Shown: positions 11,928 to 25,509 of the stretch, in pieces
Layout: each line of letters begins with the position of its first letter
Position numbering within the stretch: the first letter of the stretch is position 1
Assembly: GCA_913045935.1 (NCBI GenBank)
Contig: CAJWSY010000012.1
Coordinates: 1 to 34,738, forward strand
DNA: 34,738 bases
Direction: 5' to 3'
Source of the DNA: an uncultured Chloroflexota bacterium
Lineage (GTDB): Bacteria; Chloroflexota; Dehalococcoidia; Lucifugimonadales; GCA-002694895
Made by a program: the position numbers and the translations under genes
Notes under the pieces: model-generated
What the model was told of the DNA's origin: nothing
Seen by the model: only the letters and a program-made list of their open reading frames with translations
Database searches by the model: none

Positions 11928-13162
11928 ACCAAGAAAACAAAAAACCAACAAATATATTTTACGGTTGGTGGATTGTTATTTCGGGTACAATTGTAAATGC
12001 ATTGGCTACTGGTACATATTGGCATGGTTTTGGTGCATTTTTTGATCCAATTGTTGATGAATTCAAATGGAGCCGTGCATTAACTTCCATTGCACCTGCA
12101 CTTCAAAGATCAGAAGGTGCTGCATTTGGTCCATTTGTAGGTATTGCTATAGATAAATTCGGTCCAAGAAATGTAATGCTTTTTGGAATCATATTATGTG
12201 GGCTTGGGTTTATCGCGCTAGCTCATACAAACTCATTATTGTGGTTTTTTGTAGCAAGTAGTATTTTAACACTAGGTTTAACTTTTGGGACTTTTCTAGT
12301 CGTTAGCACTGCAGTCGCTAATTGGTTTGTTCAAAAAAGAGCATTAGCTTTATCTGCGGCATCAACAGGATCTGGATTTGGAGGATTTCTTGTACCACTT
12401 GTAGTCTTGCTTATAAGTACATATGGATGGCGAGAATCATTAGAGTATATAGGAATATCTTTTTTTATAATAGGAATTCCATGTTCACTGGTAATGAGAA
12501 GTAAACCTGAGGATTATGGTATGTACCCAGATAATATAAACCCTAAAATTCAAAAAGAAAAAAATATAAAAAAAGAAGTGGACTATGGTACCAAAGAAGC
12601 TTTGAAATCACCTACATTTTGGACTTTTGCGACTGTTGTGGGAATATCTCAAATGATGATGTCCTCAAATGTTCATTTAATTCCAGCTCTAAGTAGCTTT
12701 GGATTTAGTCGTGAAGTTGCAGGGTTAATTATAGGAATAGGAGTTAATATTACAAATTTTGGCGGAAGAATCTTATCAGGGATATATGGAGATAAATTAA
12801 ATAAAAAATACATACTTACTTTTGCATTCTTTTGCCAATCCGTTGGTTTAATTATTTTTTCTTTTAGTAGAACAATTTTTCAATTAATATTTTTTATGTT
12901 TTTTTGGGGATTAGGTTTTGGACTCTCTGTACCAACAAGATTAGCCATTACAGGTGATTACTTTGGGCGAAAAAATTATGGAACTATACTATCCTTAATA
13001 ATGACAGTCAGTGCAATTTATAGCGTTCTTGCTCCGGTTGCTGTTGGATGGGGTTATGATGTATTTGGAAATTATAGACAGCCATTTTTAATACTAGCAT
13101 TAGTGTCGAGCGTAAGCGTTCCTGGAATGCTTCTTATTAAACCGATGGAAGAAAAAAATTAA
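11924..13162 (+). CDS. MFS transporter, monocarboxylate / oxalate-formate antiporter-like
   Basis: This 412-residue protein has about 12 membrane segments. The N-terminal YGWWIVISGTIVNALATG plus a DEFKWSRA turn is typical of the monocarboxylate-transporter and oxalate:formate-antiporter branches of MFS. A loop 2-3 motif (DKFGPRNVMLFG) and a charged central loop (about 200-225) divide the two halves. It probably imports or exchanges an organic acid across the cytoplasmic membrane. Its 4-bp ATGA overlap with the hydrolase gene argues that it carries the substrate of the TPP enzyme or hydrolase, or their product. The stop overlaps the convergent ABC ATPase gene by 4 bp (13159-13162). Confidence 0.88.
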   Translation: MNQENKKPTNIFYGWWIVISGTIVNALATGTYWHGFGAFFDPIVDEFKWSRALTSIAPALQRSEGAAFGPFVGIAIDKFGPRNVMLFGIILCGLGFIALAHTNSLLWFFVASSILTLGLTFGTFLVVSTAVANWFVQKRALALSAASTGSGFGGFLVPLVVLLISTYGWRESLEYIGISFFIIGIPCSLVMRSKPEDYGMYPDNINPKIQKEKNIKKEVDYGTKEALKSPTFWTFATVVGISQMMMSSNVHLIPALSSFGFSREVAGLIIGIGVNITNFGGRILSGIYGDKLNKKYILTFAFFCQSVGLIIFSFSRTIFQLIFFMFFWGLGFGLSVPTRLAITGDYFGRKNYGTILSLIMTVSAIYSVLAPVAVGWGYDVFGNYRQPFLILALVSSVSVPGMLLIKPMEEKN

Positions 13163-14229
13163 ATTATCTTTTGGTTTTTGTAACATATCAAGGGATGTCC
13201 GGGAGTTAACTCTACATCAACTTTTGTTCCCACATTAAAATCATTTGTATGAGATGAAAGGCTTTTTACAATTTTGCCTGAGTTCAGTTTTATGTAATAA
13301 ATGTAATACATTCCTCTATATTCTCTTTGAACAACAAATCCATTTCCTGCGTTATTTTTTGTTATGGTAATATCGTCAGGTCTCAGCATAATATTTACAG
13401 TCTCACCATTTGAAGCATTAGATTGAACTTCTATTTTTCCTAATTCAGTATTGGCATATTTATCTTTAATTTCTCCATCAATAAAATCAGCTAATCCAAT
13501 AAATTCAGCAACAAATTGATTGGACGGATTTTGAAACACTTTTTTATTTTCATCTATTTGCTGTATTTCACCTTCGTTCAATACTATTATACGATCTCCC
13601 ATGTACAAAGCTTCTTGTTGATCATGAGTGACAAATAAACAAGAGATCTTTAAATATTTAAGAATTCTTCTAACTTCCATCCTTAATTGTATTCTTAAAT
13701 TTGGATCTAAATTAGAAAAAGGTTCATCCATCAATAAAATTTTAGGACGTGGAGCTAATGAACGTGCCAAAGCCACTCTTTGTTGTTCCCCTCCTGATAA
13801 TTCATCAGGATACCTGTCACGTAAGTGATAAATACCTGTCATTAACATTAAATCAGTTAAAGATGATAATTGTGAAAGAGATTTATGTTTTGTGTTATTA
13901 ACATCCATCCCATATTGAATATTATTTTCTACTGTCATATGAGGAAACAATGCAAAATCTTGAAAGACAATACCTATATCTCTTTTTTCTATAGGTATAT
14001 CTATTGTACTTGAAAACATAATTTTTTCAGAAATTTTTATAGTTGCTTCATTAGGATTTTGCAATCCTGTAATACATCTGATTAATGAAGTTTTCCCTGA
14101 CCCACTTGGCCCTACTAAAGCTAAAATTTCTGAATCTTTAATTTCAAAATTAATATCTCTTAGTACCTTATTATCATCATAATTAAGTGACAAATTTTCA
14201 ACAATTAACGATTTTTGTTCTTTATTCAT
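13159..14229 (-). CDS. fbpC: Ferric-iron ABC transporter ATP-binding protein
   Basis: The 356-residue ATPase has Walker A GPSGSGKT (40-47), Q-loop Gln89 in VFQDFALFP, ABC signature LSGGEQQR (143-150), Walker B ILLMDEP (163-169), D-loop SNLD and switch His201. Residues about 240-356 form the C-terminal regulatory (TOBE-like) domain common to FbpC, PotA and MalK proteins. It powers the permease encoded 7 bp upstream. Assignment to ferric iron rests on that fused permease and the FutA/FbpA-like binding protein; polyamine, sulfate or phosphonate import use related ATPases. It is the last gene of the operon as seen here, converging on the MFS gene. Confidence 0.88.
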   Translation of the reverse strand: MNKEQKSLIVENLSLNYDDNKVLRDINFEIKDSEILALVGPSGSGKTSLIRCITGLQNPNEATIKISEKIMFSSTIDIPIEKRDIGIVFQDFALFPHMTVENNIQYGMDVNNTKHKSLSQLSSLTDLMLMTGIYHLRDRYPDELSGGEQQRVALARSLAPRPKILLMDEPFSNLDPNLRIQLRMEVRRILKYLKISCLFVTHDQQEALYMGDRIIVLNEGEIQQIDENKKVFQNPSNQFVAEFIGLADFIDGEIKDKYANTELGKIEVQSNASNGETVNIMLRPDDITITKNNAGNGFVVQREYRGMYYIYYIKLNSGKIVKSLSSHTNDFNVGTKVDVELTPGHPLICYKNQKII

Positions 14230-14236
14230 TTAAAAA

Positions 14237-15820
14237 TTATTTATTTTTACTAAATTTTACCTTTATATCTTCTGTATGTATAGATAGATATGTTGGTATA
14301 GCAATTATAATTATTAAAAGTAAACCTGCTAAGCCCGCAGAAGAGAAATTAGCTTCCTCCAATCCATCCCAAATTACTGTTGATAACGTATGAAAATTAA
14401 GAGGTGCTAAAACCAAAGTTACAGGTAATTCTTTTGCAGTTAATATAAAAACGTTTAATAATCCTTTTTTAATACCGGGAGCATATAAAGGTAATGAAAT
14501 TTTATAAAAAGTTTCAAAATAACTTTTTCCTAATGATTTTGAAGCTATTGAATATCTTTCACCTATAAGTTCTGATGAAGTTCTAATTGGACCATAACCT
14601 GTAGAAAAAAATAAAACTATATATCCCATAATCAAAATTATCCAAGTCTGATATATAGAAAAAAAGTAATTGACAGAGAAATATACAAAAGAAAGGGCAA
14701 TTACTAATCCAGGAAGAGTGTATCCAAAATATATCAAATTTTCAAATGCTATTCTTAAACGATTATTATTTTTTGATAAAACATCAATAATTAAGAAAGC
14801 CAAGATCATACATATAATTGCAGTAACAGCAGAACCAGTAAATGTATTGTAAATAGCATCTATTTTAATTGTTCCCATTAATTCAACAATACTTAAGTTT
14901 GTTCTGAATATTAATTCAAAAATCATTATAAAAGGAATCAGAACACTAATTATGGCAATAATTATAAGAGTTAGCTGCACCAAAGAATGTTTGTTTTTGA
15001 CATCATACAAATTTTGATTTATTAGTTCAGATGGTTTCTTAGAAATTTTACGAGAATTTAAAATAGACATATTAATTGCATAAAATATAATGGGCAAAGA
15101 TAATAATATTAAGATTAATGCATATGATGCTGCACCTTCCAAATCAAAAGATCTATACTTTGTATAAATAGCCAAAGTAAAAGTTTGGTATTGCATAGCT
15201 TGCACAGCGCCAAAATCACTTAAAGTATATAGAGCTACTAGTACGCAGCCAGAATAAATTGATCCTTTGATGTTCGGTAATATGATTTTCAAATATGTTT
15301 GATAATGATTTTTACCGAGAACTCTAGATGCGCTTTCAAGTTTTCTATCTACTAATTTTAATCCTGTGCAAATATTTATGTATACATATGGGAAACATAT
15401 AAAAGTTAAACACAACCAAGCACCAATAAATCCATACATATCTGGAAATCTTTCAATATTCAAAAAAATATTAAAAAAATCATATAGTTTGCCTTTAGGC
15501 CCATAAAATAAAATGAACAAATAACCTGCAAAATAACTTGGAATAACAAGTGGAATAACAAGTAAAACTCTCCACATTTTCGCATATTTTATTTTAGCAA
15601 TCTCTGTAGCCCATGACAGATATAAGCCTAATATCAAAGTAGATAGTGTGACTGCAAAAACAAGAGAAGCTGTATTTATTATCAATTTGAGATAATTTAG
15701 TGAGAATATATTCTGAAAGGAATTAAATAAATCTACCAATCCATATGTAAATAAATATACTAAAGGTATGCTAAACAACAATATTAGAAGACAAATAATT
15801 AACCCAATTACTCTTCTCAT
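14237..15820 (-). CDS. fbpB: Ferric-iron ABC transporter permease (two fused permease halves)
   Basis: The 527-residue integral membrane protein has about 12 predicted segments in two homologous halves, as in FbpB/SfuB ferric permeases that replace a permease heterodimer with one chain. Each half holds an ABC-permease coupling motif: near residues 165-185 (SASRVLGKN then LPNIKGSIYSG) and near 440-465 (IASKSLGKS then LPLYAPGIKKG). It sits in the cytoplasmic membrane and passes iron from the lipoprotein to the cytoplasm. The ATG at 15820 has TTGGAG upstream. The 171-bp gap to the binding-protein gene contains a perfect hairpin, so permease expression is probably lower than that of the binding protein. 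Confidence 0.9.
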   Translation of the reverse strand: MRRVIGLIICLLILLFSIPLVYLFTYGLVDLFNSFQNIFSLNYLKLIINTASLVFAVTLSTLILGLYLSWATEIAKIKYAKMWRVLLVIPLVIPSYFAGYLFILFYGPKGKLYDFFNIFLNIERFPDMYGFIGAWLCLTFICFPYVYINICTGLKLVDRKLESASRVLGKNHYQTYLKIILPNIKGSIYSGCVLVALYTLSDFGAVQAMQYQTFTLAIYTKYRSFDLEGAASYALILILLSLPIIFYAINMSILNSRKISKKPSELINQNLYDVKNKHSLVQLTLIIIAIISVLIPFIMIFELIFRTNLSIVELMGTIKIDAIYNTFTGSAVTAIICMILAFLIIDVLSKNNNRLRIAFENLIYFGYTLPGLVIALSFVYFSVNYFFSIYQTWIILIMGYIVLFFSTGYGPIRTSSELIGERYSIASKSLGKSYFETFYKISLPLYAPGIKKGLLNVFILTAKELPVTLVLAPLNFHTLSTVIWDGLEEANFSSAGLAGLLLIIIIAIPTYLSIHTEDIKVKFSKNK

Positions 15821-15871
15821 TAGATCTCCAATTAATTAATTCATTATAAATATTAATTTAGAAAAAGAAAA

Positions 15872-15917
15872 GAAGAGCTTGTAAATGCTAATGTGAGGCG
15901 ACATTTACAAGCTCTTC
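15872..15917 (-). terminator. Perfect 16-bp hairpin, intra-operon terminator/attenuator
   Basis: GAAGAGCTTGTAAATG (15872-15887) and its exact reverse complement (15902-15917) flank a 14-nt loop. In the direction of transcription (right to left) the stem is followed by a T-rich run (complement of 15861-15871). It lies downstream of the binding-protein gene and upstream of the permease gene. It therefore probably ends most transcripts after the lipoprotein, or stabilises that message's 3' end, giving excess binding protein over transporter. Confidence 0.8.
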
Positions 15918-15991
15918 CCTAAAAAAGCTGAACCACTTAATTTTAATAATACACAGTCAGTAGATTAAACTAACTAAACTAAGTGATGGTT

Positions 15992-17098
15992 TTATTTTGG
16001 AAGTGCCCCAGCTTCTTGAAGTAACTTAACTGATCCTTGGATGTCAGCAAGATCAGATAAACTTATATTTGCTTTTGTTATATCAGCCAATGGAGTCAAC
16101 AGAGGATGTTGTTTAACACCTTCTATTAAAGGATATTCCCTGGTTGAATTAACAAAGTAATTCTGAGCGACTTTAGATAACATAAAATCAACAAATTGTT
16201 GAGCATTATCTTTATTTTTTGCTGTGCTCATTATTCCTATTGGAGAAACCATAACTAAAGATCCTGGTCCACCAGAAGCCAAGTGAATGTTTCTTGCTTT
16301 AAACGCATCACCTTCACCCGCATCTAATACGAATTTATACAGGTAGTAATGGTTAACTAATCCTATATCGATTTCTGCTTTACCAGCAGCTTCTACTTGT
16401 GGAGTATTTTTAGGATAAACTTTTACATCGTTATCCATCATACACTTGACCCACGCCATAGCTTTATCTTCTCCCCACATAGTTCTCATAGCAGTAAGCA
16501 TTGTTTGGAATGAGGAGTTAGTTGGCGCCCATCCCATTTTACCTTTGAATTTTGGATCGCATAAGCTATTAAGATCTGTAATATCTGCAGGGTTAACATT
16601 ATCAGTATTGTAAACAATTGTTCTAGCTCGGCCAGAAACTCCAATCCATTTACCTTGGTTGGATTTTGCCCAATCAGGAACTAATGCTAATGAATCTGCT
16701 GATACATTTTGAAGCATACCAATTACACTTCCAACCGCACCCGGATCTTGTGCATAGAATACGTCAGCTGGAGTTTTATCACCTTCTGACATAATTAAAG
16801 AAGCCATTTCTCCGCTGCTTCCATATTTTACTTCTACATCAATACCGCTGATAGCTTGAAATTGTTCTATAATTGGCCCAACAAGACTTTCTTTTCGGCC
16901 TGAGTAAATTACCAAGCTGCCTTTATCACGATCAACTTCTTTTACAACTTCAACTTCTTTTACAACTTCAACTTCTTTTACAACTTCAACTGGAACTTCT
17001 TTTACAACTTCGACTGTTTCTGTTTCAGTACAAGCTATAGCAAAAGCCATTAAGGATGTAAGAGCTACTAAAGTAGATAATCTGAAAATTTTATTCAT
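15992..17098 (-). CDS. fbpA: Ferric-iron ABC transporter substrate-binding lipoprotein
   Basis: The 368-residue protein begins with a lipoprotein signal peptide ending in AIAC (lipidation Cys23), followed by a repetitive linker of Val-Glu-Val-Val-Lys-Glu units (about 26-56). The periplasmic-binding fold starts at LVIYSGRKESLV. Conserved features are AQDPGAVGSV, the GVSGRARTIVYN strand, and a VNHYYLYKF segment whose tyrosine pair matches iron-coordinating tyrosines in FutA/FbpA proteins. It captures Fe(III) outside the membrane and hands it to the permease. AAGGTG lies upstream of the ATG at 17098. It is first in the operon, under a promoter overlapped by a palindrome. Thiamine or phosphonate binders are more distant alternatives. 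Confidence 0.9.
   Translation of the reverse strand: MNKIFRLSTLVALTSLMAFAIACTETETVEVVKEVPVEVVKEVEVVKEVEVVKEVDRDKGSLVIYSGRKESLVGPIIEQFQAISGIDVEVKYGSSGEMASLIMSEGDKTPADVFYAQDPGAVGSVIGMLQNVSADSLALVPDWAKSNQGKWIGVSGRARTIVYNTDNVNPADITDLNSLCDPKFKGKMGWAPTNSSFQTMLTAMRTMWGEDKAMAWVKCMMDNDVKVYPKNTPQVEAAGKAEIDIGLVNHYYLYKFVLDAGEGDAFKARNIHLASGGPGSLVMVSPIGIMSTAKNKDNAQQFVDFMLSKVAQNYFVNSTREYPLIEGVKQHPLLTPLADITKANISLSDLADIQGSVKLLQEAGALPK
16931..17014 (-). repeat. Short in-frame tandem repeat encoding the lipoprotein linker
   Basis: An 18-bp unit (plus-strand reading ACTTCTTTTACAACTTCA) recurs with minor changes and encodes alternating Val-Glu-Val-Val-Lys-Glu residues between lipidated Cys23 and the binding domain. 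The repeats probably form an extended or beta-like stalk. Similar linkers are common in Chloroflexota lipoproteins. The near-identical units are prone to slippage, so stalk length may vary between strains. Confidence 0.75.
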
Positions 17099-17136
17099 TT
17101 ATAAACACCTTAAATTAATATATGTTAATAACATTG

Positions 17137-17169
17137 GTTAATATATATTAACTTAATAGCTTAAGTCAA
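17137..17169 (-). promoter_or_regulatory. Promoter with overlapping perfect palindrome upstream of the iron-import operon
   Basis: GTTAATATATATTAAC (17137-17152) is a perfect 16-bp palindrome. On the minus strand TTGACT (17164-17169, five of six to the -35 consensus) is followed after 18 nt by TATATT (17140-17145), so the palindrome covers the -10 box. A related sequence, TTAATATATGTTAA, lies at 17115-17128. This is the layout of a repressor operator. Control by a Fur- or DtxR-type iron sensor is inferred from the genes served, since the palindrome does not match a classical Fur box. Confidence 0.5.
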
Positions 17170-17367: not shown

Positions 17368-18150
17368 ATGAAATCTATGGGTTTAACTACAACTGCCATC
17401 TCTCTAATATTAGGATCTACTCTTATTATAATATTCAATTCACTGATACCAGTTAATGCTGCAAATCCGTTTGATTTCTCATTTGACCCCTCAGAAACTA
17501 GTAAAGTAGTCGACGCTACTATGGGAAATCAAGTTAATCTGAGAATATTCAGTATGTTATTAACAATAAGTACTTTGTTAATTCCGCTTGGATTAATTGG
17601 AATACTAAGGCTTTCGGAAAAAGACGATAAAAAGAAATTAACTACATGGGGATTCGTTCTAGCGATAATATCTGTAACACTTTGGGCTATAACTTCAGGT
17701 GCAAATTTGGCCTTTGCCGGTGTTATTTCAGGAATGGTAAGTGCAACAAATGAATTAAATGCAGCACAATCTGCTCTAGCAGGTGCAACAGCATCTAAAA
17801 ATATGGCTTTAGTTGGTCAAATGACAGGAGCAATAACTGGATTGCAAATGGCAATGATGTCACTTACAATAACCGCTGGTACAATAAATGCAATTGGTCT
17901 TGCATCTCACCAGATCGCCACTGTTATATTTCTTCTAGCAAACGCCTTATTGGGACTAGGAATGATTCAAACTAAACCCTTAAACAATATTGTATCTAAG
18001 CTACTTTTGATTGTTGGAGTTATTGGGTTTGTAATTTTATTGATATATCCTGTTAGTTCCGAACCTGGTTACGCATTAGGTGGAATAATATTAACTGCTC
18101 TAGCGGTGCTCTGGATGATAAAGGGAATAATCGTTTACAGATTAAAATAA
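17368..18150 (+). CDS. Multi-pass membrane protein of unknown function
   Basis: I do not recognise this 260-residue protein with certainty. It has about seven hydrophobic segments (roughly residues 8-30, 57-80, 90-118, 147-175, 181-197, 207-226 and 232-255). A short extracytoplasmic stretch after the first (NPFDFSFDPSETSKVV) and a charged cytoplasmic loop (SEKDDKKKL) follow the positive-inside pattern. A glycine/alanine/methionine-rich region around 120-165 lies between segments. The layout resembles small integral membrane proteins of the DUF4386 type, a weak comparison made from topology only. It is divergent from the iron operon and 30 bp upstream of hemH on the same strand, so it may belong to an iron/haem unit. 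Confidence 0.7.
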   Translation: MKSMGLTTTAISLILGSTLIIIFNSLIPVNAANPFDFSFDPSETSKVVDATMGNQVNLRIFSMLLTISTLLIPLGLIGILRLSEKDDKKKLTTWGFVLAIISVTLWAITSGANLAFAGVISGMVSATNELNAAQSALAGATASKNMALVGQMTGAITGLQMAMMSLTITAGTINAIGLASHQIATVIFLLANALLGLGMIQTKPLNNIVSKLLLIVGVIGFVILLIYPVSSEPGYALGGIILTALAVLWMIKGIIVYRLK

Positions 18151-18180: not shown

Positions 18181-19269
18181 ATGAAAAATGGATACTTAAT
18201 TCTAAACACCGGAACTCCAGATGCACCTACTATCCCTGCATTAAGAAGATATTTAAAACAATTTCTATCAGATCCCGATATGCTTGATTATCCTTCGATT
18301 AGACCTGAAGAAAGTTCCAAAGGTTTAGATGTATTAAAAAACAAACTTGCATCAGTAATAAGATGGCTCATTGTAAATCTAATTGTTGTCCCATTTAGAC
18401 CTGCCAGAATAAGAGAAGGTTATTCTAGTATATGGACTGAAGAAGGTTCTCCATTATTAGTTAACACTGAAAAATTTACCAAAAAACTTAAAAAATTAAC
18501 AAATGGTAATATTGAAATTGGAATGAGGTACGGAAATCCTTCTATTGAAAGTGCGATAAAAAAACTAAAACAGGCAAATACAGAAAAACTTTTTTTAGTA
18601 TCTATGTTTCCACAATATGCAGAAGCAACTTCGGGATCAACTTTTAGGGAAGTTGAAAGAATACTTAAAGAAGAAAACTATCATCCTGAAATTATAAAAA
18701 TAGATCATTATGCAACCGAAGAATTTTACCTAAATTCTTTTGCAAAAAGTATTAAAGAATCTGAAGAGTATAAAAACTCTGAATATTTACTTTTCAGTTT
18801 CCATGGGTTACCAGTAAGACAGTTAAAAAAAGCAGATCCTTCAGGAATGCATTGTCAAAAGGTAGAAAATTGTTGCGAGAAAATCAGTGAATTTAATGCA
18901 TATTGTTACAAATCTCACTCTGTAAAACAAATAATGAAAATTGCAGAAATGATAGATCCCGACATTCCTTTTAAAATTTGCTACCAAAGTACATTTGGTC
19001 CTGAAGAATGGATTCAACCAAATATTATCGATGTTCTTGAAGAGCTAGCAGAAGATGGGGTGAAAAAAGTATCAGTAGCCTGTCCGTCATTTACTGCAGA
19101 TTGCCTTGAAACTCTAGAGGAAATAGCTGTAGAAAATCATGAAGATTTTGAAAAAAATGGCGGTGAGTATGTGAAATTAATTCCAAGCCTTAACGACAAT
19201 GACTACTGGGTCGAAGCTTTTGCTGATTATCTGAAACAAAAAGAATATGAACTCTCAGAACAAACATGA
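18181..19269 (+). CDS. hemH: Ferrochelatase with a four-cysteine insert
   Basis: The 362-residue enzyme has the ferrochelatase core: LILNTGTPDAP (6-16), LFSFHGLPVR (204-213, metal-handling His208) and SVACPSFTADCLETLEE (298-313, with the conserved acidic pair). It inserts Fe(II) into a porphyrin in the last steps of haem synthesis. Unusual is the segment HCQKVENCCEKISEFNAYCY (224-243) with Cys225, Cys231, Cys232 and Cys242, placed after the catalytic histidine where a plain helix occurs in many enzymes. It may bind a metal or an iron-sulfur cluster. A GAGGT Shine-Dalgarno precedes the ATG. The 3' end overlaps the DUF454 gene by 23 bp. It lies just across the regulatory region from the iron importer. 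Confidence 0.93.
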   Translation: MKNGYLILNTGTPDAPTIPALRRYLKQFLSDPDMLDYPSIRPEESSKGLDVLKNKLASVIRWLIVNLIVVPFRPARIREGYSSIWTEEGSPLLVNTEKFTKKLKKLTNGNIEIGMRYGNPSIESAIKKLKQANTEKLFLVSMFPQYAEATSGSTFREVERILKEENYHPEIIKIDHYATEEFYLNSFAKSIKESEEYKNSEYLLFSFHGLPVRQLKKADPSGMHCQKVENCCEKISEFNAYCYKSHSVKQIMKIAEMIDPDIPFKICYQSTFGPEEWIQPNIIDVLEELAEDGVKKVSVACPSFTADCLETLEEIAVENHEDFEKNGGEYVKLIPSLNDNDYWVEAFADYLKQKEYELSEQT

Positions 19270-25431: not shown

Positions 25432-25509
25432 TATTGTTCGATTATATATTACAGAGCATTAAAGTTTATATTACAATTAAGACATTAATAAAAATTTATA
25501 AATTTTATA

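Follow-up and report, generated by a model that had tools for sequence, protein, structure and literature searches.

A conserved palindrome over the -10 box of an fbpABC promoter in SAR202-type Chloroflexota, a probable operator of a divergent DtxR-family repressor

A perfect 16-bp palindrome, GTTAATATATATTAAC (positions 17137-17152, without strand; hereafter O1), encloses the -10 box of the promoter of fbpABC, a ferric-iron import operon, in the 34,738-nucleotide stretch of Chloroflexota DNA that was analysed (hereafter the window). Our analysis confirmed this arrangement, and comparisons among related genomes make it probable that a metal-activated repressor of the DtxR family controls fbpABC with the palindrome as its operator. 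The DtxR-family protein encoded in the same genome (contig C25, 11830-12558) would then be the binder and repression the outcome, as we infer from these comparisons. The palindrome is not a word repeated throughout the genome; its significance comes from conservation upstream of fbpA.

The operon occupies positions 13159-17098 of the minus strand. It comprises fbpA (15992-17098), which encodes a ferric-iron-binding lipoprotein whose best solved relative is 7w3w, a ferric iron ABC transporter iron-binding protein (E 2.5e-74), together with fbpB (14237-15820), a fused 527-aa permease with a BPD_transp_1 domain, and the ATPase gene fbpC (13159-14229). Relatives of the fbpA region were found in ‘Chloroflexi bacterium NAT190’ (96% identity), ‘Dehalococcoidia bacterium PW3.metabat2.41’ (76%) and ‘SAR202 cluster bacterium bin22’ (49%), and the organism accordingly belongs, in all probability, to the SAR202-type Dehalococcoidia. 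Residues of about 29-55 of FbpA (16934-17014, minus strand) form a repetitive VEVVKEVPVEVVKEVEVVKE linker behind the signal peptide, and Saprospiraceae records entered the search for relatives by way of stretches resembling this linker. The fbpA match in the nearest relative (G004, locus L005, 1501-2598) carries one in-frame TGA and has many N upstream, perhaps a matter of assembly quality.

The first-pass annotation had described a perfect palindrome over the -10 box of a TTGACT promoter that serves the importer, and both elements were found. A promoter-pattern search of the gap ahead of fbpA identified, on the minus strand, a -35 hexamer TTGACT (17169-17164), an 18-bp spacer and a -10 hexamer TATATT (17145-17140) that lies within O1. 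This pair, a 10/12 match, outscores the four other promoter-like matches of the gap, and it is not significant by itself because shuffled sequences give 3.4 such matches on average. The related sequence that had been noticed nearer the gene is also present, as a weaker operator-like site (O2, ATTAATATATGTTAAT, 17114-17129, without strand) that is identical to O1 at 13 of 16 positions, and its offset proved to be 23 bp instead of 22. On the other side of the same intergenic region, a divergent plus-strand reading frame (17368-18150, 260 aa) resembles a membrane protein by eye, has no match in Pfam or NCBIfam, and sits just ahead of a ferrochelatase gene (18181-19269).

Symmetry is weak evidence here, because the window contains several AT-rich palindromes of similar length: four perfect palindromes with arms of at least 8 were seen in these AT-rich 34.7 kb, compared with 1.8 in shuffles, although only 4.3% of shuffles of the 269-bp fbpA gap contain one. 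We therefore dropped palindromicity as an argument. The other perfect palindromes of the window, with arms of 8 or 9, are composed of A and T only (849-864, 2443-2460 and 25491-25506). In the organism's own assembly (1.33 Mb, about 76% complete) the exact 16-mer occurs once, and at most two mismatches yield three places, as against nine for the reversed control. Of the places with two mismatches, one falls within a reading frame that we take to be tilS and the other lies between reading frames that are presumably phoH and a gene for a SAM hydrolase. Scattered random copies in AT-rich gaps, which would have counted against an operator, were thus not seen. A search of this genome for further copies ahead of iron genes gave no close match to the genus operator apart from that at fbpA, and a large iron regulon was accordingly not found.

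Conservation within the genus provides the first line of support. The 14-bp core of O1 (17138-17151, layout TTAATNNNNATTAA) is retained as TTAATATATATTAA before fbpA in all five genus genomes, our own included. An alignment of the five upstream regions has 52 invariant columns among 155 ungapped ones, and the longest invariant run is precisely this 14-bp core, a length reached by none of 20000 column shuffles. The surrounding elements vary: the -35 hexamer is clear only in G000 and G004, while O2 is clear only in G000, keeps its left arm in G004, matches at 9/14 in G002, and was not found in the fbpA upstream regions of G001 or G003. A search of the five genomes for exact TTARTATATAYTAA, a pattern derived from the genus fbpA sites themselves, returned eight places, one at fbpA in each genome and three at the 3' ends of reading frames not recognised as iron genes, two of which are apparently the same gene in two species.

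A related form of the palindrome can be recognized throughout the order. Among the 60 genomes searched, fbpA was detected in 50 (own included), and the 53 matches with E <1e-50 gave 52 rows after G019, where the contig ends, was omitted, and 47 rows once the genus was removed. De novo motif discovery in these 47 upstream regions returned T[TA]AGT[AG][TC]ATACT[TA]A with a log-likelihood of 204 (400 seeds), whereas three shuffled sets, searched more lightly (150 seeds), gave values from 54 to 59. This motif, derived without the genus, ranks O1 first when both strands of the window are scanned (15.3 bits; next 14.5). Matches to TTAGTATATACTAA at a level of at least 11/14 were found in 23 of the 47 regions, compared with 2 for the reversed control, 2.2 for shuffles and 1.1 for random windows of the same loci; at 12/14 or better, the corresponding numbers are 16, 0, 0.23 and 0.25. 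The motif falls below 11/14 in 24 of the 52 rows. The palindrome is therefore conserved in relatives, on which its reading as an operator had been made to depend, and the suggestion of a repressor-operator arrangement gains substance from the five genus genomes and the 23 order regions alike.

The relationship between the motif and the promoter also extends beyond the window. Of 28 rows, 11 have a TTGACA-like hexamer that begins 16-18 bp before the operator does, so that the -10 box falls inside the operator; the distance is exactly 17 bp in seven of them, and random anchors give four at most. The offset of +23 seen between O1 and O2 is likewise the best second-site position across 28 rows (mean identity 6.5/14, compared with 4.3, sd 0.5); part of this signal may come from self-similarity of the motif, because offsets of -11, -23 and +11 follow closely behind.

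When 250 genomes of the order were searched for exact TTAGTRYRYACTAA, 31 places were found in 26 genomes (18 places for the reversed control), and 21 of these, in 19 genomes, are at fbpA, counting one in G033 that lies about 1 kb ahead of the fbpA match. Two more are at imelysin genes (PF09375; L206, 217-1491 and L189, 282-1511), and one is at a Peripla_BP_2-like protein that scores 25.2 bits, below the cut-off of 27.5. The remaining seven are at genes for a nitroreductase, a Fic protein, a zinc-binding dehydrogenase and an epimerase, inside two reading frames, and at one other location. We consider imelysin a likely second member of the regulon; the five genus genomes, which are incomplete, yielded no imelysin gene. 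Among individual relatives, an operator-type sequence, TTAGTGTATACTTA, precedes dtxR itself in G041, another lies between divergent dtxR and fbpA genes in G022, and the fbpA of G035 bears two perfect operators.

Two family searches found one DtxR-family and one Fur-family protein in the organism's own genome. The DtxR-family assignment is based on three domains, all above their cut-offs: PF01325 (27.6 bits; cut-off 26), PF02742 (60.0; 27) and FeoA (39.2; 23). Its nearest solved relatives by sequence are ScaR and SloR (3hrs, 5cvi), followed by a third metal-dependent regulator and by DtxR; in NCBIfam it matches an MntR best, at 73.1 of 350 bits, far under the cut-off. With PF01325 as the sole criterion, 8 of 37 genomes have a DtxR gene no more than 5 kb from fbpA. 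Several genomes with an operator gave no DtxR by this domain, and an alignment search recovered the protein in most of them; with that search added (G008 and G054) linkage is seen in 10 of the 45 genomes that have both genes. G043, one of these ten, has a DtxR from outside the clade next to an fbpA paralogue that lacks an operator. In the genus, dtxR is not linked to fbpA, and the best motif score upstream of our own dtxR is 10.8 bits.

Occurrence of the two genes across genomes points the same way. Both are present in 45 genomes, fbpA alone in five, DtxR alone in four and neither in six (Fisher p 0.0014, uncorrected for kinship). Among the 27 genomes that have an operator at 11/14 or better, DtxR is present in 25, where each genome was scored over the 500 bp ahead of the match start such that the site of G033 lies outside this count. 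DtxR was not found in G003, a genus member that is 65% complete, or in G058, which has a 12/14 site and is 88% complete. Two genomes, G028 and G031, lack DtxR and operator together, and 18 genomes with DtxR have an operator score below 11/14. For tree building and residue comparison we aligned 35 DtxR rows, a subset of the search matches, of which 30 make up the clade and five are other DtxRs. The genus proteins, which a long branch of 2.55 changes per column leads to, group with the fbpA-adjacent DtxR of G035 (support 93/88, below the starred level), in a tree that has further long branches for G015, G032 and G011.

The protein and its proposed site can be compared residue by base with IdeR. 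According to PMC8464063, the full IdeR/DtxR operator is the 19-bp TTAGGTTAGSCTAACCTAA, a single dimer occupies the 14-bp TTAGGNNNNCCTAA, and each subunit reads the half-site CCTAA; the one direct hydrogen bond runs from Gln43 to C1, T3 is contacted by Ser37 and Pro39, and changing C1 and C2 together to T abolishes specific binding, which neither change does alone. O1 departs from the one-dimer site: the spacing and the outer TTA/TAA agree, but two inner base pairs in each half-site differ. Its best match to the 19-bp box is 12/19, equalled by 9% of shuffles, so the earlier statement that this is not a standard Fur or DtxR/IdeR box stands for DtxR/IdeR as it does for Fur (see below). As expected of an operator of this class, the site does sit on the promoter of an iron-uptake gene. 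Half-sites read ACTAA in the order, where C1 is lost and C2 and T3 remain, and ATTAA in the genus, where both cytosines are replaced, C1 by A rather than T. On the protein side (residue numbers follow IdeR-type numbering through the alignment), the position of Gln43 is Gly, Ala or Ser in all 30 clade rows, Ser37 is retained in 27 and Pro39 in 28, and the interval from Met10 to Pro39 spans 38-39 residues, compared with 27-29 in the five other DtxRs. The genus has Thr at position 42, which is found in none of the order rows, and Thr for Ser at position 40, which is shared with two of 26 order rows and hence is not decisive.

The metal site is similarly distinctive. The sulfur ligands Met10 and Cys102 that mark the IdeR subgroup are replaced by Asn and His in all 30 clade rows, and Glu105 and His106 are kept. 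The MntR subgroup has Asp or Asn at position 10 and Glu at 102, as given in PMC10317159; the Asn of the clade fits this description, but position 102 is His instead of Glu. The primary site of our own protein (Asn, His, Glu, His) thus conforms to neither the IdeR nor the MntR type. Of the ancillary ligands, also characteristic of the IdeR subgroup, His79 is retained in 26, Glu83 in 25 and His98 in 22 of the 26 order rows, and these positions have become Phe, Ser or Gly, and Phe in all four genus rows. The first-pass proposal of a lineage-specific iron regulator is supported and can be made more precise: gene neighbourhood, co-occurrence, the tree and the recognition-helix residues favour a lineage variant of the DtxR family, and iron would be the signal metal because of the target genes.

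Other readings of the site deserve consideration. Binding by Fur or a Fur paralogue seems quite unlikely to us, even though a Fur-family protein is encoded in our genome and in 55 of the 60 genomes searched (own included). O1 matches the 19-bp Fur consensus, GATAATGATAATCATTATC, at only 11/19, where shuffles average 11.3 and 81% do as well. Moreover, Fur was not found in G035, G021, G055 or G029 (the last 74% complete), all of which have operators of at least 12/14, and it lies within 6 kb of fbpA in none of the 44 genomes with both, the nearest being 7.4 kb away. We therefore disfavour Fur as the binder on grounds of a chance-level box match, the failure to find it in these four operator-bearing genomes and lack of linkage. 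The Fur-family gene of our own genome (contig C1, L034, 1474-1887) is followed by a gene (1957-2760) that we take to encode a NicO-like transporter, a hint of another metal, and this Fur may be a regulator that responds to nickel or zinc.

A transcription factor of another family, of the Rrf2/RirA, MarR or ArsR type for example, is an unlikely binder in our estimation. Our regulator searches covered the DtxR and Fur families, and the assignment of the binder is predicted from sequence, which leaves such a factor some room. Against it, TTAG...CTAA half-sites arranged over 14 bp characterize the DtxR family (PMC8464063), and the linkage and co-occurrence of DtxR with fbpA are strong. It is far less probable still that no regulator is involved and that an AT-rich -10 region, palindromic by chance, has been conserved purely as a promoter. 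Such a reading draws on the similar palindromes elsewhere in the window and on the greater abundance of the reversed pattern genome-wide; however, both arms are invariant outside the -10 hexamer in five genomes, whereas the -35 varies, and the arms of the de novo order motif contain G and C, with most of its occurrences at fbpA.

If a DtxR-family repressor is indeed the binder, control of fbpABC might work as follows. In an iron-replete cell, a dimer carrying Fe(II), or a different divalent metal, would bind the 14-bp inverted repeat and cover the -10 box, thereby blocking RNA polymerase, and a second dimer may occupy the weaker O2, which lies 23 bp further downstream at a distance of roughly two helical turns. 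Under iron shortage the metal would depart, the repressor would release the DNA, and the importer would be made.

We give roughly even odds to a broader evolutionary proposal. An order-wide pairing of ACTAA half-sites with a loop-extended DtxR that lacks Gln43 and has an Asn/His primary site would have been altered in the genus, where both arms became ATTAA, DtxR evolution sped up, the ancillary site was lost and the protein may control only fbpABC. Repressor and operator would thus have changed together, yielding a single-site sensor with rewired recognition. What is unusual about this system is that operator, recognition helix and metal site appear to have drifted together. The absence of both a DNA-contact residue, Gln43, and the base that it contacts would be a natural example of an operator and its repressor evolving together, in a protein fold that has been studied in depth. 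SAR202-type bacteria are widespread and largely uncultured in the ocean, where iron limits much of life, and the operator site could allow iron control in this lineage to be read from sequence by computation. Among the matches listed by literature searches on SAR202 DtxR and iron uptake, on DtxR of Chloroflexi, Chloroflexota and Chloroflexus, and on the 14-mer, titles and the beginnings of abstracts do not mention this operator or regulon.

Comparison with established systems helps to place these findings. A Fur box is likewise a palindromic operator for iron import, but the sequence resemblance is at chance level. The candidate protein shares the PF01325, PF02742 and FeoA domains and the Glu105 and His106 ligands with the DtxR/IdeR and MntR/ScaR/SloR repressors; it differs from them in having 9-10 extra residues ahead of a recognition helix that lacks Gln43, in the Asn and His that stand at Met10 and Cys102, and, in the genus, in the loss of the three ancillary ligands. 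With respect to the IdeR/DtxR operator of Actinobacteria, CCTAA is replaced by ACTAA in the order and ATTAA in the genus, and the second overlapping pair of half-sites at an offset of 5 gives way to a weaker site about 23 bp off. What the two operators have in common is a 14-bp inverted repeat with an identical 4-bp centre and half-sites ending in ..TAA, overlap with the promoter, an iron-import target and, in some relatives, a DtxR-family gene beside that target.
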